From an uncultured Lachnospiraceae bacterium (GTDB lineage Bacteria; Bacillota; Clostridia; Lachnospirales; Lachnospiraceae), in assembly GCA_900317475.1 (NCBI GenBank), contig ONGY01000007.1, forward strand, positions 1-33,464: a stretch of DNA of 33,464 bases, given 5' to 3'. The position numbers and the translations under genes were made by a program. Below the pieces are notes generated by a model that worked only from the letters and a program-made list of their open reading frames with translations, was not told the origin of the DNA and ran no database searches. Within the stretch, counting starts at the first letter, position 1. Each line of letters begins with the position of its first letter. Positions 11,697 through 25,240 of the stretch are shown here, one piece after another.

Positions 11697-13076
11697 ATGA
11701 GTGCAATAGAAATGACTGCCGGCGGCGTGACCGCTGCGAAGGGTTTTTTTGCTGCAGCGGCAGCAGCAAAAATTAAGTATCAGGGACGCACGGATATGGC
11801 CATGATTTACAGCAAGGCTCCGTGCACGGCGGCCGGCACCTTCACCTCGAATGTTGTAAAGGCATCCCCTGTCCTTTGGGACCGTGACATCGTAAAGAAC
11901 GGTGGGAGCGTGCAGGCGGTCGTAGTGAATTCCGGCATTGCAAATGCCTGCACCGGAAGGGAAGGCCTTTCCATGTGCGCCGCGGAGGCAGAGGAAGCCG
12001 CCGGTGTTCTCGGAATCGGGGAGAAGCAGGTGCTGCTCGGCTCGACCGGTGTCATCGGCATGCCCATTCCGATGGACAGGGTGAAGGCGGGCATTGAAGA
12101 GCTCGCATCCGGGATCGGGACCGGAAAAGGAAACGCATTTTCCCCGAGAGAGGAAGCAGCCGGCGCGGATGCCGGAACAGCGGCTGCACGGGCCATCATG
12201 ACAACTGACACCATTGCCAAGGAATGTGCATGCACCTTCCGTCTGTCGGACGGGACGAAGATCACGATGGGCGGCATGAGCAAGGGGTCAGGCATGATTC
12301 ACCCCAATATGTGCACCATGCTCTGCTTCATCACGACAGATGCCGCCATATCCGGAGAGTGTCTTGACCTCGCAGTTCACAGGGCAGTAAATAACAGCTT
12401 CAACATGATTTCCGTCGACGGAGATACGTCCACGAACGACACCTGTGTCGTGATGGCAAACGGACTGGCCGGCAACAGGGAGATCACCGGGGACGGAGAG
12501 GACTTTCAGACGTTTTCCGAAGCTCTCCGGATGCTGACGGAACGGCTCGCCAAAACGATGGCGGGTGACGGTGAAGGGGCATCGAAGATCATCGAAATGC
12601 GTGTCCTTCATGCGGATACAGAGGAGAATGCGAAGATTCTCGCAAAATCCGTCGTGTGCTCGAGTCTCACGAAGGCCGCTATTTTCGGCCGGGATGCAAA
12701 CTGGGGGCGCATTCTCTGTGCGCTCGGTTATTCCGGTGTGAGCTTTGATCCGGACAAGGTAGATCTTTATTTTATCGGCACCGGTGACGGCAGCAGTAAA
12801 TCAGACAACAAGGCGGATTATCTTCCGGATGAGGCGATGATCAGCGGACCGTGCGGGAGTTTTGACGGAGACGGGAAGAACCCTGGATACCGGAAGATGC
12901 TTATCTTTTCGAACGGACGCGCAGCGGATTACAGCGAGGAAGAAGCCACGGCCCTTCTTTCGGGAAAGGCAGTGACCATCGCGGCGGATATGCATGAGGG
13001 AAATGCAGAGGCGGCAGCATGGGGCTGTGATCTCACGTATGATTATGTAAAAATCAATGCGGATTACCGCTCTTAA
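11697..13076 (+). CDS. argJ: glutamate N-acetyltransferase / amino-acid acetyltransferase
   Basis: ArgJ transfers acetyl from N-acetylornithine to glutamate, recycling the acetyl group, and in some organisms also makes acetylglutamate from acetyl-CoA. The 459-residue precursor cleaves itself before the nucleophilic threonine; here the site is MIHPNMC/TMLCF with T207, with Cys206 in place of the usual Ala. Other family marks are TSNVVKASPV, NSGIANACTG, GSTGVIG, KGSG, SVDGDTSTND and FGRDANWGRI. The length is somewhat above the usual 400-410, with extra residues near 145-160 (the AFSPREEAAGADAGT segment) and in the C-terminal third. AAGGA eight or nine bases upstream supports the start. A terminator hairpin lies 53 bases past its stop. 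Confidence 0.95.
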   Translation: MSAIEMTAGGVTAAKGFFAAAAAAKIKYQGRTDMAMIYSKAPCTAAGTFTSNVVKASPVLWDRDIVKNGGSVQAVVVNSGIANACTGREGLSMCAAEAEEAAGVLGIGEKQVLLGSTGVIGMPIPMDRVKAGIEELASGIGTGKGNAFSPREEAAGADAGTAAARAIMTTDTIAKECACTFRLSDGTKITMGGMSKGSGMIHPNMCTMLCFITTDAAISGECLDLAVHRAVNNSFNMISVDGDTSTNDTCVVMANGLAGNREITGDGEDFQTFSEALRMLTERLAKTMAGDGEGASKIIEMRVLHADTEENAKILAKSVVCSSLTKAAIFGRDANWGRILCALGYSGVSFDPDKVDLYFIGTGDGSSKSDNKADYLPDEAMISGPCGSFDGDGKNPGYRKMLIFSNGRAADYSEEEATALLSGKAVTIAADMHEGNAEAAAWGCDLTYDYVKINADYRS

Positions 13077-13128
13077 ATGAATCAGCGCAGATTTGACTTA
13101 AGCCGGATAAAACGTATCAATCGGATAT

Positions 13129-13160
13129 ACCGGAATTCTTCAGGAATTCCGGTTATTTTC
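13129..13160 (+). terminator. rho-independent terminator of argJ
   Basis: ACCGGAATTC (13129-13138) pairs perfectly with GAATTCCGGT (13144-13153) around a five-base loop, followed by TTATTTTCG. It falls inside the longest reading of the next frame, which argues that the next gene starts downstream of it. Confidence 0.7.
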
Positions 13161-13235
13161 GATATTTCCCCGGATGTATTCAGACAGATTGGATCTATCC
13201 CTGAGCATTATCCGGGAGCAGCCCGGGCCGCAGGT

Positions 13236-14672
13236 ATGGCAGCAAAAAAGAAACACGCAAAACTGCATAATGCATTTGCTTCCCCGCTTCTTTGGGGAGC
13301 AGTCGGGTTCCTGTGCTATCTTCCGTACTTTCTCGCGTTTTATCCGGGAGTGACAACGCCGGATTCCATCTGGCAGATCAGACAGGCACTGCACCTTGTG
13401 CCGTACAACAGTCAGCACCCGTTTCTGCACACGCTCTTCATCGAACTTTGCATGAGGATCGGGGGAGGGGATGTGAACCGCGGGAATGCGGTCTATTCGC
13501 TCCTGCAGATGGGATTCTTATGCGTGTGCTATCAGGCTGTGCTCACGATGCTGCGCAAGGAACTTGCTCCGCGGTGGTTTCTCGTGCTGTGCTGGATGTT
13601 CTTCTTTCTGTGCCCGTACTGCGCAGTTTACTCGATCACGATGTGGAAGGATGTTCCGTTCGGAGCCGCGGTTCTTGTACTGTTCGTCTATGTGTGGCAC
13701 CGCTGCCGCCGTCAGGCTGTGTGGACGCCGGGAGCGCGGATTCTTTTCTTTGTTCTCTCTCTTCTTGTGAGTCTGCTGCGGTCGAACGGATTCATCGCAT
13801 GGTGCATTTTCATCCTTGTTTTTGCACTGGCAGACTGGAGACGATTCCGCCGTCTTCTTGTGCCTTCCGTTCTCGTCATTCTGTGCACGATCCTCTGGAA
13901 TGGGCCGATTCAGAACGCCTGTGGGGTGGAAAAGGCGGATTTCACGGAGGCGCTTTCGATCCCGCTGCAGCAGGTGACCTACACTGTCATCGAAGACGAG
14001 AAGGACGAAGAGCATGAGCTTATCACGGAGGATGAATATGCGGTTCTTTCCGAAGTGATGGATGTGGCGAAGGCCGCGGATATGCACGATACCTGGCTCG
14101 CCGACGCCACGAAGGATCTCGTGCGGCAGAGCGGGGGCGGAGAGAAGATTAAGGCGCATCCGTTCCGGTATGCCGCGGTCTACCTGCGGATCGGGCTCCG
14201 GAATCCGAAATGCTATAGGAAGGCCTGGTATGACCAGACCTACGGCTACTATATGCCGACGCTTGGGACAAAGGCCGGATATTCTTCCGAGGTACAGGAA
14301 AATGACATCGGACTTGTGCGGACGTACCATCTTCCGTATGCAGCGGTCATTTTCATGTATAATATATTGAACAATTTTACGCAGGTGTATACGTATGCCT
14401 GGTGTGCGGCTTACAACTTTTATCTGCTTGCCGCATCCATGATTGTCCTGACAGTCCGTGCGCACCGGTATGTGCGCAGGGGACATGCCCGGACGGGTAC
14501 AGCGGCGCTGTCACTTGGAACTGCGTATGTCTATATGCTGCCGCTCGGCGTTCTCATAACGGTTCTGCTTTCGACGCCGGTCGCGAATGATCTGCGTTAT
14601 GTATGGGCACTGTTTCTTTCATGGCTTCCGGGGATTTACATGGCAGCGGCTCCGCCGGCAGGCAGAAAATAA
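13236..14672 (+). CDS. polytopic membrane protein of the DUF6020 type
   Basis: From the ATG at 13236 the protein has 478 residues and about ten or more hydrophobic segments. The first extracytoplasmic loop reads [18 protein letters not shown] and then [10 protein letters not shown], and a later loop has [11 protein letters not shown]. These are marks of DUF6020-like proteins, distant relatives of GT-C membrane glycosyltransferases. A large soluble loop (about residues 230-350) precedes the last membrane segments. The frame is open back to 13077, directly after the argJ stop, but that stretch overlaps the argJ terminator and looks unconserved; neither start has a strong ribosome site. argB follows after 34 bases. 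A role in surface polysaccharide or teichoic acid modification is inference. Confidence 0.68.
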
Positions 14673-14706
14673 ATCCATGGGAAAGCAGACAGGAGAGGAT
14701 CTTCAG

Positions 14707-15597
14707 ATGGAAACAACAGTTGACGAGGCACAGAGAAAGGCGGAGGTGCTGATTGAGGCGCTTCCCTACATTCAGAAATACAACCGCAAGATCATCGTCG
14801 TAAAGTATGGCGGGTCCGCGATGAAGGACCCGGAGCTGCAGAAGAATGTCATCAAAGATGTCACTTTGCTGAAACTCGTCGGATTTCACCCCATCATCGT
14901 CCATGGCGGCGGCAAGGCCATCAGCAGGTGGGTCGAGAAAACCGGCGGAGAGCCGAAGTTTGTGAACGGACTCCGCGTGACGGATGAATCCACGATGGAG
15001 ATCGCCGAGATGGTGCTCGGCCGGGTGAACAAGCAGCTCGTCTCGATGATTGAACAGCTCGGCATCCGGGCTGTCGGCATCTCCGGCAAGGACGGAGATC
15101 TGCTGCATGTGCACCGGAAATATTCGGACGGGCAGGACATCGGCTATGTCGGCGAGATTGACTGCGTGAATCCGAAGGTGCTCCATGATCTGATGGAGTC
15201 CGACTATCTGCCGGTTGTGTGCCCGGTGGGCTTTGACGATGAGTTCCGCTCCTACAACATCAATGCGGATGATGCCGCCTGTGCAATTGCGAAGGCGGTC
15301 GGCGCCTACAAGCTTGTCTTTCTCACGGATGTCGAGGGCGTCTACCGTGATTTTAATGACAAGTCGACCTTCATCTCGCGCATGTCTGTCTTGGAGGCGG
15401 ATTCGCTGATCCGGGACGGCGCGATCGGAGGAGGCATGCTTCCGAAACTGGAGAACTGCACGGACGCGGTCCGGGCAGGCGTCTCCCGGGTTCATATCCT
15501 CGACGGCCGGATTCCGCACAGTATGCTGCTGGAAATCTTCACCGATAAAGGTATCGGAACCATGTTCTATCCGGATGAGGACAGGGACACTTTATAA
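14707..15597 (+). CDS. argB: acetylglutamate kinase
   Basis: ArgB phosphorylates N-acetylglutamate, the second and usually feedback-controlled step of arginine synthesis. The 296-residue protein has the amino-acid kinase marks KYGGSAM (about 32-38), HGGGKAIS (about 64-71), GLRVTD, the [12 protein letters not shown] segment and FLTDVEGVY, and GGGMLPKL near the C-terminus. The frame is open upstream, but [11 protein letters not shown] at 14707 matches the family start and has AGGAGAGG before it. The stop overlaps the ATG of the next gene (TAATG), which implies translational coupling with a membrane glycosyltransferase, an unusual partner. Confidence 0.95.
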
Positions 15598-16979
15598 TGG
15601 ACAAAACAGCGGGCAGAAAGAAAATGGCCGGCAGGGCCGGAGGTTCTGCACGGAAAGATGCGGGGCTTCTTACCATTGCAGGGGCAGGAATTCTGCTCCG
15701 TTTTTTCTATTGCCTTTTTTCCACAATTTACGAACGGCAGTACGATATCGGTGAGATCGACCTTGCGGCGGGCCACACGGTTTCAGGCGGGCATCTTGCC
15801 TATATACAGTATGTTTATGAGAGCGGGCATCTGCCCTGCATGGACTTTGATCCGACGAGTGTCTATCAGTTCAACCACCCGCCGCTTCATTACGCCGTGT
15901 CGGCGCTCTGGCTTCGGTTTGCATCGCTCTTTATCGGCAATACGGCAGTGCTCGAGGAGAGTATTCAGATCATTCCGTTTATCTCGTCGGTTCTTACGCT
16001 TGTTTTTCTTATCCGAATTCTTGGGCTTCTGCCGATGGACCGCCGGGGAGAGCGGCTGGCTGCAGCAGTTTTTGCGTTTCATCCCGCACTCATCCTGCTT
16101 TCCGGAAGCGTCAACAACGACGGCGGAGGACTGCTGTTTACGGTACTCATTCTCTATGAGACCATGCGGTGGTGCCGTGCGCAGGAGTGGAGGACGATCG
16201 TATTTCTTGCTCTGTGGTTCGGCCTCGGGGTGATGACAAAGCAGAATGTGGCCGAGATGGCGCTGCCGGTCGGCGCGGCTTTCCTTTACATTTTTGCAAA
16301 GCAGGCTGGAAGACGCAGAAAGATTGTCAGTCAGTGGGCGGTTTTTCTTCTGATCGCATGCCCGCTTTCGCTCTGGTTTTATCTCTATAATTACGTGCGC
16401 TGGAGAGTACCCCTCGTCTGGGTCTACACTCTGCCGGAGGATTCCTGGCAGTATGTGGGAAACGTTCCTGCGGTGTATCGGTTCCTGCTCCCGGATTGTT
16501 CTGAGCTCGTCTCGAATCTGCGGCAGGGCAGGATCGGCTGCGGCTATAATACCTGGATTCAGATCTTCCGCACCTCCGTCCTCGGGGAGTGGGATATGGC
16601 CGGGGCCGGCCGCACCGTCAAAATTCTGGCGCTCCTTTTGATGGCGGCCGGCGCGCTGCCCGCCGTCATTTCCTTCATCGCTATGCTGGATGCCCTCCTC
16701 GTGCGGGGCGTGCATTACGGCGTCCGCAGATACGACCGCATCCTGCTTCTTCTCACGTATGCGGTGACGATGTTGTTTTATCTTAAGTTTGTTTATGATT
16801 ATCCGCAGCAGTGCAGTATGAATTTCCGCTATATCACGGTCACACTGGTGCCGACCGCGGCGGGGGCGGGAATTGTGTACGGGTCCATGAAGAAACCGCT
16901 CCGGGTCTTTGCGGCCCTTCTTACGGCAGTTTTTGCGTTTCTGTCGGTTCTGATGACCGCAGTCTGGTGCGCAATGTAG
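15597..16979 (+). CDS. GT-C fold membrane glycosyltransferase-like protein
   Basis: The 460-residue protein has a basic N-terminus, then about ten to twelve hydrophobic segments. The first large outer loop contains acidic residues (GEIDL) and the sequence FDPTSVYQFNHPPLHYAVSALW, the layout of ArnT/PMT-like GT-C enzymes, which use polyprenyl-phosphate sugars on the outer face. SGSVNNDGGGLLF and GVMTKQN are further family-like segments. Its start codon shares a base with the argB stop. The acceptor and donor cannot be read from sequence. The YfhO-like gene downstream suggests a common glycopolymer pathway. Confidence 0.72.
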   Translation: MDKTAGRKKMAGRAGGSARKDAGLLTIAGAGILLRFFYCLFSTIYERQYDIGEIDLAAGHTVSGGHLAYIQYVYESGHLPCMDFDPTSVYQFNHPPLHYAVSALWLRFASLFIGNTAVLEESIQIIPFISSVLTLVFLIRILGLLPMDRRGERLAAAVFAFHPALILLSGSVNNDGGGLLFTVLILYETMRWCRAQEWRTIVFLALWFGLGVMTKQNVAEMALPVGAAFLYIFAKQAGRRRKIVSQWAVFLLIACPLSLWFYLYNYVRWRVPLVWVYTLPEDSWQYVGNVPAVYRFLLPDCSELVSNLRQGRIGCGYNTWIQIFRTSVLGEWDMAGAGRTVKILALLLMAAGALPAVISFIAMLDALLVRGVHYGVRRYDRILLLLTYAVTMLFYLKFVYDYPQQCSMNFRYITVTLVPTAAGAGIVYGSMKKPLRVFAALLTAVFAFLSVLMTAVWCAM

Positions 16980-17011
16980 GAATCCAGGGATTATAAATAA
17001 TCCCTGGATTC
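16980..17011. repeat. perfect 15-bp inverted repeat after the GT-C gene
   Basis: GAATCCAGGGATTAT (16980-16994) and its complement (16997-17011) are separated by AA. It follows the GT-C stop by one base. No T run follows (CTATCCCG), so it is a stable stem, possibly a weak terminator or a 3'-end stabiliser, between the GT-C and YfhO-GH20 genes. Confidence 0.75.
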
Positions 17012-17056
17012 TATCCCGACAATAATTCCGGAAGTTGGATCCGAAGGAGATTGAGC

Positions 17057-20000
17057 TTGGAAAAGAAAAAAAGAGGCCTGAAATGCAGAATTCCTCTCGA
17101 AGCAGCCGTATTCACGGCGGCTCTTTCCTGTCTGCTCTTTGGCCTCTTTGGGTTCTGGCCGTTTGGAAAAGGGTCTGTAATCGTGGAGGACCTTTTCTCC
17201 CAGTACACGCCTCTCCTGTATCATTTCTTCGATTGTGTGACGGGCAAAGAGAATCTTTTCGGCGATATCCGCATTGCCGGCGGATTGAACCTCTATGCGG
17301 ATACGATCAATGAAATTCTCAACCCGTTCAATTACGTGCTGCTCCTTTTCGGGAGAGAGAACATTTACCTTTCGGTAAACCTCCTTCTTCTTCTGTATAT
17401 GACGGCGGCCTCCGCCTCGGCGGCACTGTTCCTGAAAGAAACCTTTCCGGATTCGGACCCTGTCATCCTTTCGCTCTCCTGCGCCTACGGGCTGTCGGGA
17501 TACGTCTTTTATAATTATCAGATCATCAAATGGGAATATCTTGTCGTTCTTTTCCCGCTGTTCCTTATCGCCCTGCGGCGGATGGAAAAGAAGGGGAGAG
17601 GCGCGCTGTACTCTGTTCTGCTCGCTTATCAGATCGCGCTCAGCATCCAGCTCGGATTTGAAACCTGCCTATTTGTCTTCTTCGGATACGGATTCTATCT
17701 TCATATTCTTGTCCCGCAGCAGGAGAAAAAAGAACGCTTCCGCCGCCTGGTTTTCTATTCGCTCCTGGGAGTGGCTCTATCGGCGGCAGTCCTGATCCCG
17801 AATATCTGCACCCTTCTTACTTCCGCCCGCTCCGGGTATACGGCATCGTACATCGGCGTCATGCAGCAGCACGGCCTCGACGATCTTTTCGAGCGGATTT
17901 TCAATATCTTCCACCCGGCGGTTTTCGCCCTGATGCTCTGCCTTCTCCCCGGGAGAATCGAGCACAGCAGGAGAAGGGGGCGGAAGAGCGCAAAAACTTC
18001 CGGATCGGTCCGCAGGCAGAGAAAAACATGGGAAGCAGAAACCGCTGCGTATACAGCTGCGGCAGAAAAGACAGCGGCAGAAGGAACTGCGGCGGCAGAG
18101 TCAGCGGAAAGGAAACCTGCAGCGGCAGAGAATGCGTCAGATACGACTGCGGCGGATAATGGGATCATGGACGCCGGTCCGACGACCGCAGGCGGGAATA
18201 AAGAGGTACGGTTTTTCCGTGCATGGGTCCTCTTTCTTTTTCTTACAGTCCTTCTGCAGCCGGCCAATCTCATCTGGCATCTCGGATCCTATCGCTGCTT
18301 TCCGGTCCGTTATGCCTATATGGTGCTTCTCAGCGCAGAGTGCCTGTGTGCGGCTCTGTACCGGGAAAAGTCTGCGCACGGGAGCAGAGATGCCGGAGCG
18401 CACGGACAAATCCGAAAGGGATTATTCTGTATCTTTGGAACTGCGCTGCTTCTTGCAGGCATCGCTCTGTCAGTCCGCTGGCAGGAGAGGATTTCCAATG
18501 CGTTTTCAACGCTCGCCATCAGTCTCACATGCCGGACGGAAACATGCATGGTGGCCGGAATCCTGGCGCTCCTTACGGCCGGCTCATTCCTGATCACGAA
18601 GGGTGCCTTCCCTTTTCTTTCCGCTTCCTGCGGAAAGAAAAGGTTTCTTTCCGCCTCTTGCGGAAAGAAAAGGCTTCTTTCCGCTTCCTGCGGAAAGAAA
18701 AGGTTTCTTTCCGCTTCTTGCGGAAAGAAAAGGTTTCTTTCCGGCTCGCGCGGAAAGAAAGTTTTTGCGGTGCTTCTCACCATTCCGGCGCTGGCTTCCG
18801 GGCTTTGTTACGGACTTTTCTTCTTCCTCCCGGAGTCGAATCAGGTCCGGCAGATGAATGAAGAGGCCTATGAGGAGCTTTCCGGCTGGAATAAAGATGC
18901 GGTGAAGAGCGGCAGGGAGGAAGGCCCTCTTTACACCGGCAGTCGGATTTTCATGCGGACGGATGCGAAAGAAAACATGCCGCGCGATTTTGCGCTGGTG
19001 AGCTGTGCCTCGACGCTCACCGCGTATCTCCCGACTCTCTCGGACCGGACGCAGCGTTTTCTTAAAAACTTCGGTTATTACACGTACTGGGTTGCGACGG
19101 ATGAGACCGGCGGCACGGTTATTTCGGACTTTGTCCTGAATGAACCGCTTCTTTTCAAAGCATCGGCGGGAGACCTTGCCATTTCGGAAGACTCGGCGGT
19201 CACACGGCAGCAAAAACTTTCTCAGATCCTCACGGGACAGGAAGACGCGGCAGAGGTAATAGAGGGGAGCGAGGTAAGTTTTGACGGGGAATATGAAATT
19301 CATACGGACGGGAAGAAGCATCTGTACCTCGAGACGGAAACACCATCCGAAGATTTCACCGTCTTTGTGAACGGAGAAAAGCTCTCCTACGACGGTGACA
19401 GCGCGGCAGAGGCACCTTCTGTGTTGATCGATCTTGGCATCTTTGAGGACAGCGATGTTACGGTGCGGATCCGCGGAGATGGGGGTGCAGCACCGTCGGA
19501 GGATAATGTTTCGTTTCTTGCCGTGGATGAGAGCATCTGGAAGAAGGCTTTCGAAGAGATCCTGTACGGGGAGAATGCAGAGGACGGCGCGAATGCCCGT
19601 GTACTGAGCGATGCGGAGATAAGCGACGATGAGTCGAGGTCTCTTCTCAACATCCGGATCGATGACGCCGGAGACGGAGACACGGTCGTGCTTCCGATCG
19701 TGGAGACATACGGTTATCACGTGACGCTGAACGGGAAAACGGTAAAACCCGCGGAGGTCCTCGGCGGGCTCATGGGAATCCGCACAGAAAAAGGCCTTAA
19801 TACAATCCGCATTGTGTTTATTCCGGACGGACTGAACGCCGGGATTCTTGTTTCGGCGGCCGCACTGACGGTGCTGATTGTTCTATGCGTCCGCCGCAGA
19901 AAGAAAAAGAATGCGGCAGTGAAAAGCGGCCGGGGAGAGAAAGATCCGGGAGAGATTCTCTGGCTCTTTGGAATTCTCGTCGTGTATGTCATTCCGTGCA

Positions 20001-22324
20001 TCGGGCTTGTCTTTTTCATGGGGCATAAGGCACTTTCGCAGGCGACACAGAACGGAAGCAGTGTAACAGCGCAGACCCAGGATGTGACGGTCCTTGACAC
20101 GGAGTCCACAGAGGACGGTGTCCGCGTCGATATCGCCGGCGAAAATCTGATGCTTCTTCCGGGCGTGCACATTTCTGCGGACAGCACGGAGAACAACAAG
20201 CTTTTGGCCAAATACGTGAATGATGGGATCCGGGATGATGATACGCTCCGGTGGTCTTCGGAAAACGACCGAGAGAAGTGCGATCACTATGTGGAGGCAA
20301 AGTTCCCGGAGACGGAGACATTCGGAGTCGTCCGCATTTACTGGGAGCGCTGCAATGCCTCGAAGTACGCCATTGAAGTCTCCGATGACGGAAAAACATG
20401 GCAGACGGCAGTATCCTTTGACACCCCTCCGGTATCGAAGGAGGACGAAATCCGTTTTGACACTCCTGTGACGGGACGGTATCTGAGACTGCATGTGACG
20501 GATGTACTGCGGAACGAAGCGGATGCCACGCTCTACTATCAGAATGTATCGGTTCTTGAGATGGAAGTGTATTCCGGCGTAGAGGACTCTTTCGCGGTAA
20601 GAAATCCGGAGGTTTCCGCCGGCACGGAGCGTATACTGGAAACGCCGTCGGTTCCGGACGGATACCGGCTTGAATTCGCGGGCGCGGATCTTGAGTCCAT
20701 CATTGACAGCCGCGGCCGGATTGCGGACACAATCGCGGATGTAGAAGTCGAAGTCGGATATCGTCTGATCAGCGGAAGCGTGGCGACGGATCTTCCTGGC
20801 ATGAAGATCACAATCCCTGCCTCGGCTGTCGCGGGAGAGAACGCAGCGGCAGAAGAAGGCGCAGAGGAAGCAGATGAGAAAACAACGCTTCCGGACGGGG
20901 TGAGTGTCCGCGAATGGAGACCGTCCGGCGGGGGCTTTGTCCTTTCTGATGCGGTGAAACTCGTTCTTCCTTCTTCGCAGAGCGGAGATCTTTCAGGAAA
21001 TGCTGACATTTTTGCAGAAGAGCTGAAAGAGGCCGGATTCACGGTGGAGAGAGCATCTGCTCTGCCGGAAGAAAATCCGGAAGAGCAGGAGTCAAAGGTT
21101 TCATTGATTGCACTGCAGCTTGCGGATGAGGATGGAACCACGCCGTTTGAATGCTTTGCCTCGGTCTCCGGGGAGGAAGGATACAGCATCGATCTTGCCT
21201 CGGACGGGAAGGGCATCTATCTTACGGCGGGCTCGGTCCAGGGACTCCGCTGGGCAGAAATAACGCTCGAAAAAATATTGCAGGGAGCCGGGGACGGGAA
21301 CATTCCTGCCGGATGCATCCGCGATTATCCCAGATATTCGGTCCGCGGGTTCGGCATCGATGTCGGCAGACGGGAAATCTCATTGGATTTTCTGAAAAAA
21401 CTGGTCATCGCTCTCTCCGGCGCGAAGATGAATGAGCTGCAGGTGCATCTCAACGACAACGAGACTATTGCACAGAGCGGTTATGACGGGACCGTCGAAG
21501 GAGCGCTTTCCCTGCAGTCGGGCTTCCGGCTTGCCTCCGATATACGGAACAAGGACGGGGAGAGCATCACATCAGAGGATTTCTTCTATACAAAGGAAGA
21601 GTTTGCAGATTTCATCAGCTGGGCTGCGGATTACGGCGTCCGGATCGTTCCGGAAATCGACACGCCGGCACATTCCCTTGCGTTCACAAAGGTATTTCCG
21701 GAGCTGATTCTGGGCGATGAGGCGGGGAGCGCCGATGAACTTGATCTCTCAGACCCGGAGGCGGCAGAGCTTGGAAAGGAAATCTGGACGGAATACGTCG
21801 GTGACGGAAAAACCTTTGCGGATGCAAAGACTGTCGGAATCGGGATGGATGAGTATTACGGCAGCGGAAGCGACTATGTTGACTACTTCAACACCATCGC
21901 GAATACGGTATCCGGGCTCGATCCGGACATGACCGTCCGGGCATGGGGAAGTTTTGACTGGTACGGCGCGGATCCCCAGTCTGTATCGACCGATGTGCAG
22001 ATGCAGGTGTGGCAGTTTGTCTGGCAGAATCCGGAAGAACTGTATGAAGACGGCTTTTCCGTCATCAATTCCATGAGCTCGCATCTGTATATCATTCCGG
22101 GCGGCGGATACGACCGGCTTGATATGGATTATCTTAAGGACACGTGGGAGCCGAATGTTTTCGAACAGGACGGCACCGTGATCACGATTCCCGCGTATTC
22201 GAGCCGCATGCCCGGCGCAGTGTATATGATGTGGAACGAAAAAACTGGGACGGACATATCGGAGGACGGGCTCTATGAGCGCTTCAGTGAGCCGCTCGGA
22301 GTGCTGTCCGGCAAGCTCTGGTGA
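17057..22324 (+). CDS. YfhO-like membrane protein fused to discoidin (F5/8C) and GH20 hexosaminidase domains
   Basis: TTG at 17057 is chosen as start because AAGGAG lies seven bases before it; a TTG two codons earlier is too close. Of 1755 residues, about 1-590 form a YfhO-type polytopic region with the family's first loop VEDLFSQYTPLLYHF. An extracytoplasmic domain (about 595-925) follows. Next come two membrane segments (about 928-948 and 966-988) with a strongly basic loop between, which puts the C-terminus outside. Then comes an F5/8 type C domain (about 1055-1180), a linker, a GH20b-like domain (about 1296-1420) and a GH20 barrel (about 1425-1755). The barrel shows RGFGIDVGRR, IVPEIDTPAHS and the catalytic pair D1598-E1599 in GIGMDEYYG. 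GH20 enzymes remove beta-linked N-acetylhexosamine; YfhO proteins act in lipoteichoic acid glycosylation in Bacillus and Listeria. A Glu/Ala-rich insert (about 318-381) and a tandem 10-residue repeat (520-569) are odd. Confidence 0.85.
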   Translation: MEKKKRGLKCRIPLEAAVFTAALSCLLFGLFGFWPFGKGSVIVEDLFSQYTPLLYHFFDCVTGKENLFGDIRIAGGLNLYADTINEILNPFNYVLLLFGRENIYLSVNLLLLLYMTAASASAALFLKETFPDSDPVILSLSCAYGLSGYVFYNYQIIKWEYLVVLFPLFLIALRRMEKKGRGALYSVLLAYQIALSIQLGFETCLFVFFGYGFYLHILVPQQEKKERFRRLVFYSLLGVALSAAVLIPNICTLLTSARSGYTASYIGVMQQHGLDDLFERIFNIFHPAVFALMLCLLPGRIEHSRRRGRKSAKTSGSVRRQRKTWEAETAAYTAAAEKTAAEGTAAAESAERKPAAAENASDTTAADNGIMDAGPTTAGGNKEVRFFRAWVLFLFLTVLLQPANLIWHLGSYRCFPVRYAYMVLLSAECLCAALYREKSAHGSRDAGAHGQIRKGLFCIFGTALLLAGIALSVRWQERISNAFSTLAISLTCRTETCMVAGILALLTAGSFLITKGAFPFLSASCGKKRFLSASCGKKRLLSASCGKKRFLSASCGKKRFLSGSRGKKVFAVLLTIPALASGLCYGLFFFLPESNQVRQMNEEAYEELSGWNKDAVKSGREEGPLYTGSRIFMRTDAKENMPRDFALVSCASTLTAYLPTLSDRTQRFLKNFGYYTYWVATDETGGTVISDFVLNEPLLFKASAGDLAISEDSAVTRQQKLSQILTGQEDAAEVIEGSEVSFDGEYEIHTDGKKHLYLETETPSEDFTVFVNGEKLSYDGDSAAEAPSVLIDLGIFEDSDVTVRIRGDGGAAPSEDNVSFLAVDESIWKKAFEEILYGENAEDGANARVLSDAEISDDESRSLLNIRIDDAGDGDTVVLPIVETYGYHVTLNGKTVKPAEVLGGLMGIRTEKGLNTIRIVFIPDGLNAGILVSAAALTVLIVLCVRRRKKKNAAVKSGRGEKDPGEILWLFGILVVYVIPCIGLVFFMGHKALSQATQNGSSVTAQTQDVTVLDTESTEDGVRVDIAGENLMLLPGVHISADSTENNKLLAKYVNDGIRDDDTLRWSSENDREKCDHYVEAKFPETETFGVVRIYWERCNASKYAIEVSDDGKTWQTAVSFDTPPVSKEDEIRFDTPVTGRYLRLHVTDVLRNEADATLYYQNVSVLEMEVYSGVEDSFAVRNPEVSAGTERILETPSVPDGYRLEFAGADLESIIDSRGRIADTIADVEVEVGYRLISGSVATDLPGMKITIPASAVAGENAAAEEGAEEADEKTTLPDGVSVREWRPSGGGFVLSDAVKLVLPSSQSGDLSGNADIFAEELKEAGFTVERASALPEENPEEQESKVSLIALQLADEDGTTPFECFASVSGEEGYSIDLASDGKGIYLTAGSVQGLRWAEITLEKILQGAGDGNIPAGCIRDYPRYSVRGFGIDVGRREISLDFLKKLVIALSGAKMNELQVHLNDNETIAQSGYDGTVEGALSLQSGFRLASDIRNKDGESITSEDFFYTKEEFADFISWAADYGVRIVPEIDTPAHSLAFTKVFPELILGDEAGSADELDLSDPEAAELGKEIWTEYVGDGKTFADAKTVGIGMDEYYGSGSDYVDYFNTIANTVSGLDPDMTVRAWGSFDWYGADPQSVSTDVQMQVWQFVWQNPEELYEDGFSVINSMSSHLYIIPGGGYDRLDMDYLKDTWEPNVFEQDGTVITIPAYSSRMPGAVYMMWNEKTGTDISEDGLYERFSEPLGVLSGKLW
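18614..18763 (+). repeat. five tandem 30-bp units inside the YfhO-GH20 gene
   Basis: Units start at 18614, 18644, 18674, 18704 and 18734. Each encodes a variant of FLSASCGKKR (the last is FLSGSRGKKV). Within each unit TTTCTTTCCGC is complementary to GCGGAAAGAAA, so each copy can form a hairpin. Differences among the first four units are synonymous except one F to L. The array adds a strongly positive loop between two membrane segments, in line with a cytoplasmic position. Confidence 0.95.
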
Positions 22325-22501
22325 CAGAGAAGATTCGGGGCAGGAACGCCGCCGGAACGGCAGAGCGCCCGCAAAGGTCCGGCCGTTCTGGTGACAGAAC
22401 CGTTCGGGGAGAGTACAATCGGAGAAAGCAGATTTCACAGCAGGCCTGAGGAAATTTCTCCGGAATTCATACGGCCTTTTTTCCGGCCGGAAAGGAAGAC
22501 T

Positions 22502-23707
22502 ATGGCAGCGACATTAGAAGAAGAGAAAAAGATGATCGATGAGGCGGAGCGGGATCTCCTTCATACGTACAACCGTTATCAGGTCGTGCTCGACCGCGGC
22601 GACGGAATGTATCTTTATGATGTCACCGGGAAGAAATATCTTGATTTTATGGCCGGCATCGCCGTTTTTGCGTTCGGATACAACAACAAAGAATACAATG
22701 ACGCACTCAAGGCGCAGATTGATAAGATCATCCACACCTCGAATTATTTCTACAATGAGCCGTGCATCCGCGCGGCAAAGCGCCTGAAGGAAATTTCCGG
22801 AATGGACCGCGTGTTCTTCACAAACTCCGGCGCGGAATCGAACGAGGGGGCGCTCAAGGCCGCGATGAAGTATGCATGGCTGAAGGACAAGGATGAAAAT
22901 CACAATATCGTGGCTCTCGAAAATTCCTTCCACGGGCGCACATACGGCGCACTCGCCGTCACCGGGAATGCACATTACCGCGAGCCGTTCGGACAGATGG
23001 TCTGCGATGTCCGCTTCGGGAAGATGAACGATTTCGAATCCGTAAAGGAGAAGTGCGACGCAAAAACTGCGGCGATTATCCTTGAGGTCGTGCAGGGGGA
23101 GGGCGGCCTTATCCCGGCGAACAAGGAATTCCTGGAGAGCCTCCGCGCATTCTGCACAGAGAGAGATATTCTCCTTATTTTCGACGAGGTTCAGTGCGGC
23201 ATGGGCCGCACCGGCTATATGTACGCATGGCAGAAATTCGGCGTAAAGCCGGACATTATGACGACGGCCAAAGCGCTTGGATGCGGAGTTCCGGTCGGCG
23301 CCTTTCTCATGACGGAGCATGTCGCGGAGCATTCTCTTACAGCCGGCGATCATGGAACGACCTACGGAGGCAATCCGTTTGCCTGTGCCGCCATCAACAA
23401 GGTACTGGATCTTTATGAGAGCACACATCTGGTGGAACATGTCCGCGATGTGGCGCCGTATCTGGAAAAGACACTGGACGGACTGAAAGATCGTTTTGAC
23501 TGTATCACGGAGCGCCGCGGGTCCGGCCTGATGCAGGGACTGGTGTTTGACCGCCCGGTCCGCGGCATCATCGACCGTGCGATGGAGAACGGCCTTATTC
23601 TCATCAATGCCGGCCCGAATATTCTCCGTTTCGTGCCGCCGCTTATTGTGACGGAAAAGGAGATCGACGAGATGGCGGAAATTCTATCGGCAGCCATCGA
23701 AGCGTAA
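22502..23707 (+). CDS. argD: acetylornithine aminotransferase
   Basis: ArgD makes N-acetylornithine from the semialdehyde with glutamate and PLP. The 401-residue protein is a class III aminotransferase: FTNSGAESNEGALK, NSFHGRTYGAL, the LIFDEVQCGMGRTG segment and the PLP lysine K257 in TTAKALGCGVPVG, then HGTTYGGNPFACA. The start at 22502 has AAAGGA five or six bases upstream; the frame is open earlier but unconserved. The 177-base gap before it contains an imperfect duplication of a CTGGTGACAGA-type sequence (about 22315-22345 and 22388-22415) and a short stem, without a clear terminator. It is the last arginine gene in this run; a substrate-binding protein gene follows 18 bases later. Confidence 0.93.
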   Translation: MAATLEEEKKMIDEAERDLLHTYNRYQVVLDRGDGMYLYDVTGKKYLDFMAGIAVFAFGYNNKEYNDALKAQIDKIIHTSNYFYNEPCIRAAKRLKEISGMDRVFFTNSGAESNEGALKAAMKYAWLKDKDENHNIVALENSFHGRTYGALAVTGNAHYREPFGQMVCDVRFGKMNDFESVKEKCDAKTAAIILEVVQGEGGLIPANKEFLESLRAFCTERDILLIFDEVQCGMGRTGYMYAWQKFGVKPDIMTTAKALGCGVPVGAFLMTEHVAEHSLTAGDHGTTYGGNPFACAAINKVLDLYESTHLVEHVRDVAPYLEKTLDGLKDRFDCITERRGSGLMQGLVFDRPVRGIIDRAMENGLILINAGPNILRFVPPLIVTEKEIDEMAEILSAAIEA

Positions 23708-23725: not shown

Positions 23726-25240
23726 ATGAGTTTACGGACAAAAATTATTTCGGTGGCGCTGATTGCCGCCCTTCTTGCAGGTCTTATCTGGGCTGCCGGT
23801 CCCGGGCATGCGCTTGACACAGCTCAGGAGCAGACCAGTTCTCTTTTCTCGCGGAGCAAGGAGACACTGTACCTATGGTACAGTGATGATGCTCTCACGG
23901 ATTACCTCAACGAGATCGCGGTCGCCTATAACAGCGAAAACCGGGATTACCGCATTGAACCGGAGTATAAGGACGGAACGGACTTCCTGCAGGCTGTAAA
24001 TACAGCGTCCGTGCAGGCGGAGTCGGATATGCCGGATCTTTACATCATCGCAGACAATTCCCTCGGAAGAGCTTATCGCGCGGGACTTGCCGCGGAAGTC
24101 AGCAATTCGTCAGTTTTTGAAAACACACTTTTTTACCCGCAGACTGCGATTAATTCGGTGACGTATCAGGGCAGGAGGGTCGCCTATCCGTTTTATTTTG
24201 AGACGGCGGCGCTGCTGTACAACGCGGACTACCTTCAGAGCTTTGCCGACAAGGCAGGAAAGTCGCTGGAGGAGACGGTTCCCAGTACGATCCAGGATAT
24301 TATTGATTTTGCGGGCAATTATGATGCACCGGAAGGCGTGACGAGTGTTTTCAGCTGGGATGTAGGCGATATTTTCTATAACTATTATTTCATCGGGGAA
24401 AGCTCCGATCTCGGCGGCGAGTGCGGGGATGACCGGGACAAGATCGACATCTACAATGCAGACACCATCTCTGCGCTGCAGGTTTTTCAGCAGCTGAACC
24501 AGTACTTCTCACTCGATACGGATGAGAACAGCTACAGCGATATTCTGGACGACTTCGCACAGGGGAAAAGTGTTTTCACGGTGGCGACGACGGATGCACT
24601 GAAGACGCTGTCGGAGAAAATCTCTTCATCGGCGGGCGGAGACGAAACGGAGAGCGCGGCTTCTGACACAGAAGGGGAGGCTTCTTCGGATGCTTCCTCG
24701 GAGTCTTCTTCGGAGACTTCTGCAGAGTCGTCCGATGCAGGAGATTCCGGGCAGCAGGATGCAGCAGGCACGCTTCAGAATTACGGAGCAGTACCGCTCC
24801 CGGACATCACGGATACACTCGGAACGCGCGGCATCGCTGTCACAAACTGCCTTGTCATCAACGGCTATTCTGAAAAGCAGGAGGGAGCGGAGGATTTTGC
24901 CGCGTTCCTCAATGAGGACCAGAGCTCGGATTTCTTTGACCGGACAGGTTACCTGCTCTGCCGGAACGGAGTCACCTACAGTGATTCTCACGCAGACGGT
25001 TTTGTCTCGGCATACCAGAGTTCGGAATGTGAGTCAAAAATCAGCGGAACCGGAAATTTCTGGATACTGCTGGAGAATACCATGGAAAATGTCTGGAACG
25101 GAGCGGACCCGAACGAATCCCTGAAGAGCCTCGATGAACAGCTCATGATTCAGCTCACCGGGGATGAATCTTACACGGTGGAGGCAATCGACAGCCCGGA
25201 ACCGATCATGCTCTCGAACGGACAGGACGACGGCAATTGA
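23726..25240 (+). CDS. extracellular substrate-binding protein, family 1 type, membrane-anchored
   Basis: The 504-residue protein has an N-terminal hydrophobic export segment (about 7-24, ISVALIAALLAGLIWAA) without a lipobox cysteine. It is followed by a periplasmic-binding fold of the family 1 (sugar/oligomer) type: ETLYLWYSDDALTDYLNEIAVAYN at the start, FETAALLYNADYL in the middle, and TRGIAVTNCLVINGYS, AAFLNEDQSSDFFDRTGYL later. A Ser/Glu/Ala/Asp-rich insertion (about 300-345) breaks the fold. No permease or ATPase gene is adjacent, so it may serve an unlinked transporter or have a sensory or structural role. It follows argD by 18 bases, and the ribosome site is weak. Its ligand is unknown. 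Confidence 0.72.
   Translation: MSLRTKIISVALIAALLAGLIWAAGPGHALDTAQEQTSSLFSRSKETLYLWYSDDALTDYLNEIAVAYNSENRDYRIEPEYKDGTDFLQAVNTASVQAESDMPDLYIIADNSLGRAYRAGLAAEVSNSSVFENTLFYPQTAINSVTYQGRRVAYPFYFETAALLYNADYLQSFADKAGKSLEETVPSTIQDIIDFAGNYDAPEGVTSVFSWDVGDIFYNYYFIGESSDLGGECGDDRDKIDIYNADTISALQVFQQLNQYFSLDTDENSYSDILDDFAQGKSVFTVATTDALKTLSEKISSSAGGDETESAASDTEGEASSDASSESSSETSAESSDAGDSGQQDAAGTLQNYGAVPLPDITDTLGTRGIAVTNCLVINGYSEKQEGAEDFAAFLNEDQSSDFFDRTGYLLCRNGVTYSDSHADGFVSAYQSSECESKISGTGNFWILLENTMENVWNGADPNESLKSLDEQLMIQLTGDESYTVEAIDSPEPIMLSNGQDDGN

Follow-up and report, generated by a model that had tools for sequence, protein, structure and literature searches.

A YfhO-type membrane protein, an F5/8C domain, and a GH20 domain encoded in one chain in a Lachnospiraceae genome and by adjacent genes in related genera

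We analyzed a stretch of 33,464 nucleotides from an uncultured Lachnospiraceae bacterium (the window; contig ONGY01000007.1 of assembly GCA_900317475.1). It carries a gene that encodes a YfhO-type membrane protein, an F5/8C (discoidin) domain, and a GH20 glycoside hydrolase in a single open frame, preceded by a gene for a PMT_2-type glycosyltransferase (Table 1). This three-domain chain had been proposed from the letters alone in a first-pass annotation, and a domain search over the protein confirmed it, all domains scoring above their Pfam cut-offs: YfhO (PF09586) with 176.7 bits versus 28.5, F5_F8_type_C with 56.9 versus 28.2, Glyco_hydro_20b (PF02838) with 49 versus 26.1, and Glyco_hydro_20 (PF00728) with 71.2 versus 22.3. 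The TTG start chosen in that annotation fits, because a Shine-Dalgarno-like stretch precedes it at a distance of 7 nt. Each of these domains is ordinary; the new element is a proposed YfhO/PMT_2 glycosylation cassette that includes its own membrane-tethered GH20, which in the genus of the window is fused.

Table 1. Features of the fusion gene and of its upstream partner in the window; sides of the membrane are predicted.
Feature	Coordinates	Strand	Remarks
PMT_2-type glycosyltransferase gene	15597..16979	+	conserved partner upstream of YfhO; Pfam
Shine-Dalgarno-like GAAGGAG	17043..17049	+	7 nt 5' of TTG 17057; read from the sequence
YfhO::F5/8C::GH20 fusion gene	17057..22324	+	1755 aa plus stop, TTG start; open throughout 1755 codons
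YfhO domain	17114..19855	+	profile positions 5 to 835 of 835, in pieces
Asp45, first extracellular loop	17189..17191	+	candidate GT-C catalytic residue (presumed role)
30-bp tandem array, 4.9 copies	18614..18760	+	LSASCGKKRF-like repeats, basic cytoplasmic loop of the fusion
Large extracellular YfhO domain	18827..19831	+	residues 591-925
TM14, canonical last YfhO helix	19832..19891	+	residues 926-945
Basic cytoplasmic loop TM14-TM15	19892..19954	+	9 K/R in 21 residues
TM15, extra helix turning the C terminus outside	19955..20020	+	residues 967-988
F5/8C (discoidin) domain	20171..20503	+	residues 1039-1149; Pfam
GH20b domain	20906..21328	+	residues 1284-1424; Pfam
GH20 catalytic barrel	21335..22321	+	residues 1427-1755; Pfam and alignment with solved enzymes
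Catalytic pair Asp1598-Glu1599	21848..21853	+	conserved in 41/41 aligned sequences, window included

The Pfam GH20 model covered positions 1 to 119 of 348 in the fusion, that is, its first third only. The C-terminal part of the protein aligns to its final residue with the solved GH20 enzymes 6jqf/7ezt (E about 1e-70), and in three of the seven linked orthologs that were scanned the profile spans positions 1 to 323, 1 to 324, and 1 to 339; both observations point to a whole barrel in the fusion. The catalytic D-E pair, read as intact in the first-pass annotation, is indeed shared by every aligned sequence, and R1430, H1539, W1630, W1652, Y1678, and W1726 are likewise invariant in the same 41 sequences. 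The roles of D1598, E1599, and these six residues are presumably those known from GH20 biochemistry. Enzymes of the GH20 family are beta-specific and act on terminal beta-GlcNAc. A predicted model of residues 1021 to 1755, made with three relatives, had a mean pLDDT of 43.9, too low for a fold search. The unfused GH20 proteins start with an N-terminal hydrophobic anchor (12 of 12 inspected, with start codons picked by hand), and in at least two of them the anchor holds a lipobox-like cysteine. The fusion is devoid of this anchor, and TM15 leads straight into its F5/8C part.

In the YfhO half, the aspartate of the first extracellular loop is conserved in all 19 aligned YfhO proteins, window included, a set from which two YfhO loci of the window's own genome were left out for want of an alignment. 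The YfhO profile (PF09586) was matched by all 13 members of set A3, while a search of solved chains with this profile, up to an E value of 1, returned no match. Hydropathy alone gave 11 or 14 membrane segments in the fusion, depending on the threshold; a count of 15 was obtained by placing a weak TM3 (mean 0.98) and a TM5/TM6 hairpin by hand. In the 15-segment model, lysine and arginine make up 11 to 55% of the inner loops versus 6 to 15% of the outer loops of at least 13 residues, a charge pattern that fits 15 membrane segments with the N terminus inside and GH20 outside. The outside location of GH20, which the first-pass annotation had deduced from the basic loop between the last two segments, agrees with this pattern independently of the total segment count, since the TM14-TM15 loop is so strongly basic that the GH20 part is expected on the opposite side. 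At the site of the tandem array of the window fusion, the same-genus genome G006 has a different low-complexity stretch.

TM15 lies beyond the Pfam model and is present in 12 of 12 unfused YfhO orthologs inspected. One YfhO paralog from the window's own genome was read; its last helix is the canonical one, followed by a basic tail. Since the unfused YfhO already ends in TM15, a join would have been possible with GH20 kept outside, and we infer that TM15 allowed the fusion without placing GH20 in the cytoplasm. A GH20 that is outward and membrane-tethered, as the charge pattern indicates, and that belongs to a family acting on beta-GlcNAc ends would also suit wall turnover, in which the enzyme would clip terminal beta-GlcNAc from peptidoglycan or from pieces of the wall, to be recycled close to the membrane. 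We consider this quite improbable: it leaves PMT_2 and YfhO unexplained, and no muropeptide recycling gene was recognized among the scanned neighbors, which are a minority of all neighbors.

The case that the first-pass annotation had named against itself, two separate genes joined by assembly, was examined in the same genus. In G006, the join is found at two loci. One contig (C211) covers query residues 613 to 1755 in one frame; another (C91) covers residues 5 to 1429, also in one frame, before the contig ends; residues 1412 to 1755 lie at the end of a third (C105), the C91 and C105 pieces being probably parts of the same gene. Because the join recurs at these two loci of a second genome, an assembly artefact is ruled out. 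Overall, 2 of the 37 genomes examined in the genus, of which many are incomplete, carried the fusion, and this count speaks against the cassette discussed below. A comparison of the two G006 copies gave dN/dS values (Nei-Gojobori) of 0.135 in the outer YfhO domain, 0.324 in TM14-TM15 plus linker, 0.224 in F5/8C, 0.202 in GH20b, and 0.113 in the barrel. Values of 0.11 to 0.32 across all compared segments suggest purifying selection on both halves of the fusion.

A match to residues 965 to 1755 at E<=1e-15 was found in 20 of 397 genomes of the family (334 genera), the window's own genome included. Three of these genomes (G063, G167, and G377) have YfhO and F5/8C-GH20 as two genes, with YfhO immediately 5' of F5/8C-GH20. 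When their genera were searched at E<=1e-20, the two genes proved to be adjacent, co-directional, and unfused in 11 genomes of these three other genera. In the genus of G377, they are adjacent in 8 of 13 genomes; neither gene was found in three, the two lie on different contigs in G472, and in G476 (68% complete) a partial GH20 at the end of a contig is all that was found. In the genus of G167, they are adjacent in 2 of 13 genomes, and the remaining 11 possess a GH20 but not this YfhO subfamily; the genus of G063 consists of one genome. The candidate stop and start codons overlap by 4 nt (ATGA) in G377, G475, and G477 and by a single nucleotide in G473, and at the other linked loci the gap between YfhO and GH20 ranges from a few to 95 nt, varying with the start chosen.

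A maximum-likelihood tree built from 39 GH20 sequences places the 11 linked and 2 fused sequences, together with that of G472, in one clade (support 100/100), with the fused pair nested among the linked GH20s (97/96); 25 solo GH20 sequences stand apart. Two partial sequences out of the 41 aligned (the second G006 copy and G476) were left out of the tree, as were the solo g132 genomes G460, G464, and G466, other solo matches of the 397-genome search, and second copies. The N-terminal part of YfhO (residues 1 to 330) matched 4 of the 397 family genomes at E<=1e-35, each with this GH20 beside it or fused to it; in 391 genomes of the class, the YfhO part had two further matches at E<=1e-25, both outside the family and with 28% identity. 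Wherever this YfhO subfamily occurred in the genomes examined, the GH20 clade was thus present as well (14 of 14 genomes). A class-wide GH20 search (E<=1e-40) matched 7 of the 391 genomes, 4 of them outside the family, with 32 to 36% identity and frames of 1330 to 1746 aa. A search of genome contigs found three Bacteroidia loci with GH20 (about 31%) and a single short match to F5/8C, no match was found in the viral contigs searched, and 306 plasmid records matched, none of which covers 80% of the query.

A survey of the architecture in the family, suggested along with the first-pass annotation, therefore backed the link between the halves: the genes are linked, the GH20s share a clade, and the halves co-occur. 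Chance neighborhood is ruled out by the GH20 clade, the YfhO-GH20 co-occurrence, and the overlapping candidate stop and start codons. Judged from the sequences, the two halves are tied by common descent and co-occurrence.

The sister-clade GH20s of the same family are stand-alone proteins, most of them with one N-terminal hydrophobic segment and all without this YfhO. This speaks against a cassette, since such a GH20 can do without YfhO, and it favors foraging, in which the GH20 would act at the cell surface as an ordinary beta-N-acetylhexosaminidase on glycans from host or diet, with YfhO as its mere anchor and no joint function. The closest solved relative, an Akkermansia enzyme reported to be active on mucin (PMC9673926), points the same way, as does a second, separate GH20 of 490 aa in the window genome, beside ROK and GH3 genes (L045, G000:C136), which is likely an ordinary HexNAc-use cluster. 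A plain anchor, however, does not explain why a YfhO subfamily with a conserved loop-1 aspartate accompanies only this GH20 clade, nor the common PMT_2 partner, and the unfused GH20s come with a hydrophobic segment of their own. We hold foraging, akin to the recycling of host or self glycans raised in the first-pass annotation, to be less likely than not, though a serious rival; further evidence bearing on it lies in the gene neighborhoods.

An ortholog of the PMT_2 protein with 50 to 63% identity was found in 13 of the 14 genomes that have the YfhO ortholog, window included, and none was detected in G477; in the other 24 of the 38 genomes searched, nothing exceeded 32% identity. PMT_2 lies directly upstream of YfhO-GH20 in 8 of the 11 linked genomes (G063, G377 [by coordinates], G462, G470, G471, G473, G474, and G475). 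In G469, three ORFs, one of them part of an MBOAT acyltransferase (L109 10593-13152), separate PMT_2 from YfhO, and in G167 the two genes are at two contig ends. A PMT_2 fragment lies directly 5' of the fusion in G006. In G472, the PMT_2-YfhO pair is kept without GH20 alongside (L114, L115); the GH20 of this genome, of the same clade, is found beside ORFs that by eye resemble dnaK and dnaJ. Both the unlinked GH20 of G472 and the lack of a detected PMT_2 in G477 speak against the cassette. The distances of the PMT_2, YfhO, and GH20 proteins correlate with r of 0.88 to 0.91 in 11 of the 14 genomes (not G006, G377, and G477), which would also be expected for any co-inherited genes. GtrA-family proteins are encoded in all 14 cassette genomes, on contigs other than that of the cassette.

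According to the first-pass annotation, two other GT-C-like membrane proteins neighbor the fusion. By family, this stands for PMT_2 but not for the product of 13077-14672, which belongs to DUF6020, a Pfam family of unknown function. DUF6020, argJ, argB, and argD were rejected as cassette members, having no tblastn match at E<=1e-8 in the 23 loci compared, of which those of G006 sit on short contigs. The arginine genes near the window copy are therefore a local feature. In the window, argJ, argB, and argD are interleaved with DUF6020, PMT_2, and the fusion (11697-23707), and argF- and argG-like ORFs lie upstream of this block on the minus strand. A MalE-like solute-binding-protein gene (23726-25237) follows argD in the window and lies directly 3' of both fusion copies in G006 (L039, L041). 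It was matched in 16 of 20 genomes examined and was likewise rejected as a cassette member, being on the cassette contig only in the window and G006.

This gene, by its position after both G006 fusion copies, and an oligopeptide-type ABC transporter block two genes past one of them would agree with foraging, yet in the remaining 12 of the 14 cassette genomes the relatives of the solute-binding-protein gene are on other contigs, and a Pfam scan of 20 window ORFs detected no sugar permease. A sulfatase near the G470 cassette, another beside the partial GH20 of G476, and a BNR-repeat protein directly before PMT_2 in G471 also count in favor of foraging, as these would suit glycan degradation too. 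In favor of the cassette, some linked loci have genes around them that make or modify glycans: NeuB and a cytidylyltransferase near the locus of G471, the MBOAT part in G469, and an acyltransferase after the loci of G167 and G462. The neighbors of the solo GH20s are not consistently glycan genes, which counts against it.

Elsewhere in the window, a perfect 15-bp hairpin without a T run lies between the PMT_2 stop codon and the ribosome site of the fusion (16979-17012; z -4.5 for the region 16970-17062). A third hairpin half-site with one mismatch is found at 16547-16560 on the minus strand, making 3 matches versus 0.04 expected, and the hairpin is possibly regulatory. An argC-like gene (81-946) is split between the frames 81-431 and 404-946, both of which hold a portion of the semialdehyde dehydrogenase domains, and is either a broken gene or a sequence error. 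A 90-bp tandem repeat of 2.1 copies (98% matches) occupies 2537-2723. An Rfam scan of the window returned 0 matches.

In the known systems of this kind, a GT-A enzyme makes an undecaprenyl-phosphate sugar, a flippase, often of the GtrA type, moves it across, and a GT-C enzyme of the YfhO or PMT_2 type transfers the sugar outside (PMC8035078, PMC5836110). The GT-C transferase of such a multi-component system is matched in the window, by family only, by the YfhO and PMT_2 profiles. With the CsbB-GtcA-YfhO three- or multi-component transmembrane glycosylation systems of B. subtilis, S. aureus, and L. monocytogenes, the window cassette shares the YfhO Pfam domain, the conserved loop-1 aspartate, a large outer domain before the canonical last helix, and GtrA-type proteins, which in the cassette genomes are encoded apart from it; PMT_2 enzymes are listed as another GT-C type (PMC8035078). 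Unlike those systems, it adds TM15, a fused or linked GH20, and PMT_2 and YfhO side by side, and no GT-A gene was recognized beside its PMT_2 and YfhO.

The N-terminal part of the fusion also matches the NCBIfam models of S. mutans PgfM2 (82.3 bits) and PgfM1 (49.8 bits), far under the curated cut-offs of 1500 and 1400, respectively. As described in the abstract of PMC5856776, the S. mutans operon, which serves protein glycosylation, is pgfS-pgfM1-pgfE-pgfM2, with no hydrolase named, whereas the window cassette has GH20. The GH20 part shares its barrel, the catalytic D-E pair, and an alignment up to the chain end with the Am2136-type beta-N-acetylhexosaminidases (6jqf, 7ezt), but the window clade differs from these in its membrane tether (YfhO or an N-terminal anchor), its F5/8C domain, and its glycosyltransferase partners. 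Glycoside hydrolases encoded with glycan-making genes are familiar from exopolysaccharide export operons, in which PgaB, PelA, and PslG act on the polymer under export. Those are not YfhO/PMT_2 systems, and we know of no fusion to a YfhO/PMT_2-type glycosyltransferase among them. In the open-access literature searched, no paper joined YfhO with a hexosaminidase, and none dealt with "YfhO domain" together with a glycosyltransferase and a glycoside hydrolase.

On balance, we slightly favor the view that the fusion represents, joined into one, the two final genes of a PMT_2-YfhO-GH20 cassette that builds and trims a surface glycan. A cytoplasmic GT-A enzyme and a GtrA-type flippase would supply undecaprenyl-phosphate sugars, which PMT_2 and YfhO would transfer to an acceptor on the outer face, either a wall- or lipid-linked polymer or a secreted protein. 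The tethered GH20, aided by F5/8C binding, would remove terminal beta-GlcNAc or GalNAc from that same glycan, and this trimming would set the final form of the glycan or let it be reset. The fusion would fix writer and trimmer in a 1:1 ratio and at the membrane.

The GlcNAc that YfhO adds to lipoteichoic acid in B. subtilis and S. aureus is alpha-linked, although the literature searched yielded no statement of this linkage. If the YfhO of the window does the same, a beta-specific GH20 cannot remove the sugar it adds, and a "writer plus eraser" acting on the same bond, as raised in the first-pass annotation, is possible only if the YfhO of the window makes a beta linkage. GH20 might equally well trim a partner sugar, the acceptor, or a lipid donor. 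A narrower version, a single-chain surface-glycan editor whose YfhO half adds a HexNAc-containing modification that its GH20 half would take off or reset on that same polymer, appears unlikely.

Action on the donor would amount to clean-up, in which GH20 would hydrolyze unused beta-linked undecaprenyl-phosphate-HexNAc on the outer face, releasing the carrier whenever acceptor runs low. We regard this as very improbable: we know of no GH20 that cleaves a lipid-phosphate sugar, and F5/8C would be left unexplained. The fusion would put GH20 at the donor site, as donor clean-up would have it, and such a function would fit the reports of harm from trapped UndP-GlcNAc in the absence of YfhO and of a putative hydrolase acting on it, UshA having been argued to free the carrier from UndP-sugars in B. 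subtilis (PMC11898649).

The building and trimming of a surface glycan bears on a question that a 2021 review of these systems leaves open, namely the active removal of such sugars (PMC8035078); this review uses "hydrolase" once, for wall hydrolases, and contains neither "glycosidase" nor "hexosaminidase." If the fusion does act as an editor, it would represent a dedicated route by which a completed polymer of the cell surface loses sugars again. An outward beta-N-acetylhexosaminidase that is either fused to a YfhO or encoded immediately after it offers a concrete and testable candidate for such a route, and the unfused relatives provide natural two-protein controls. The fusion also illustrates how a topologically ready C terminus, that of TM15, permits such a join.
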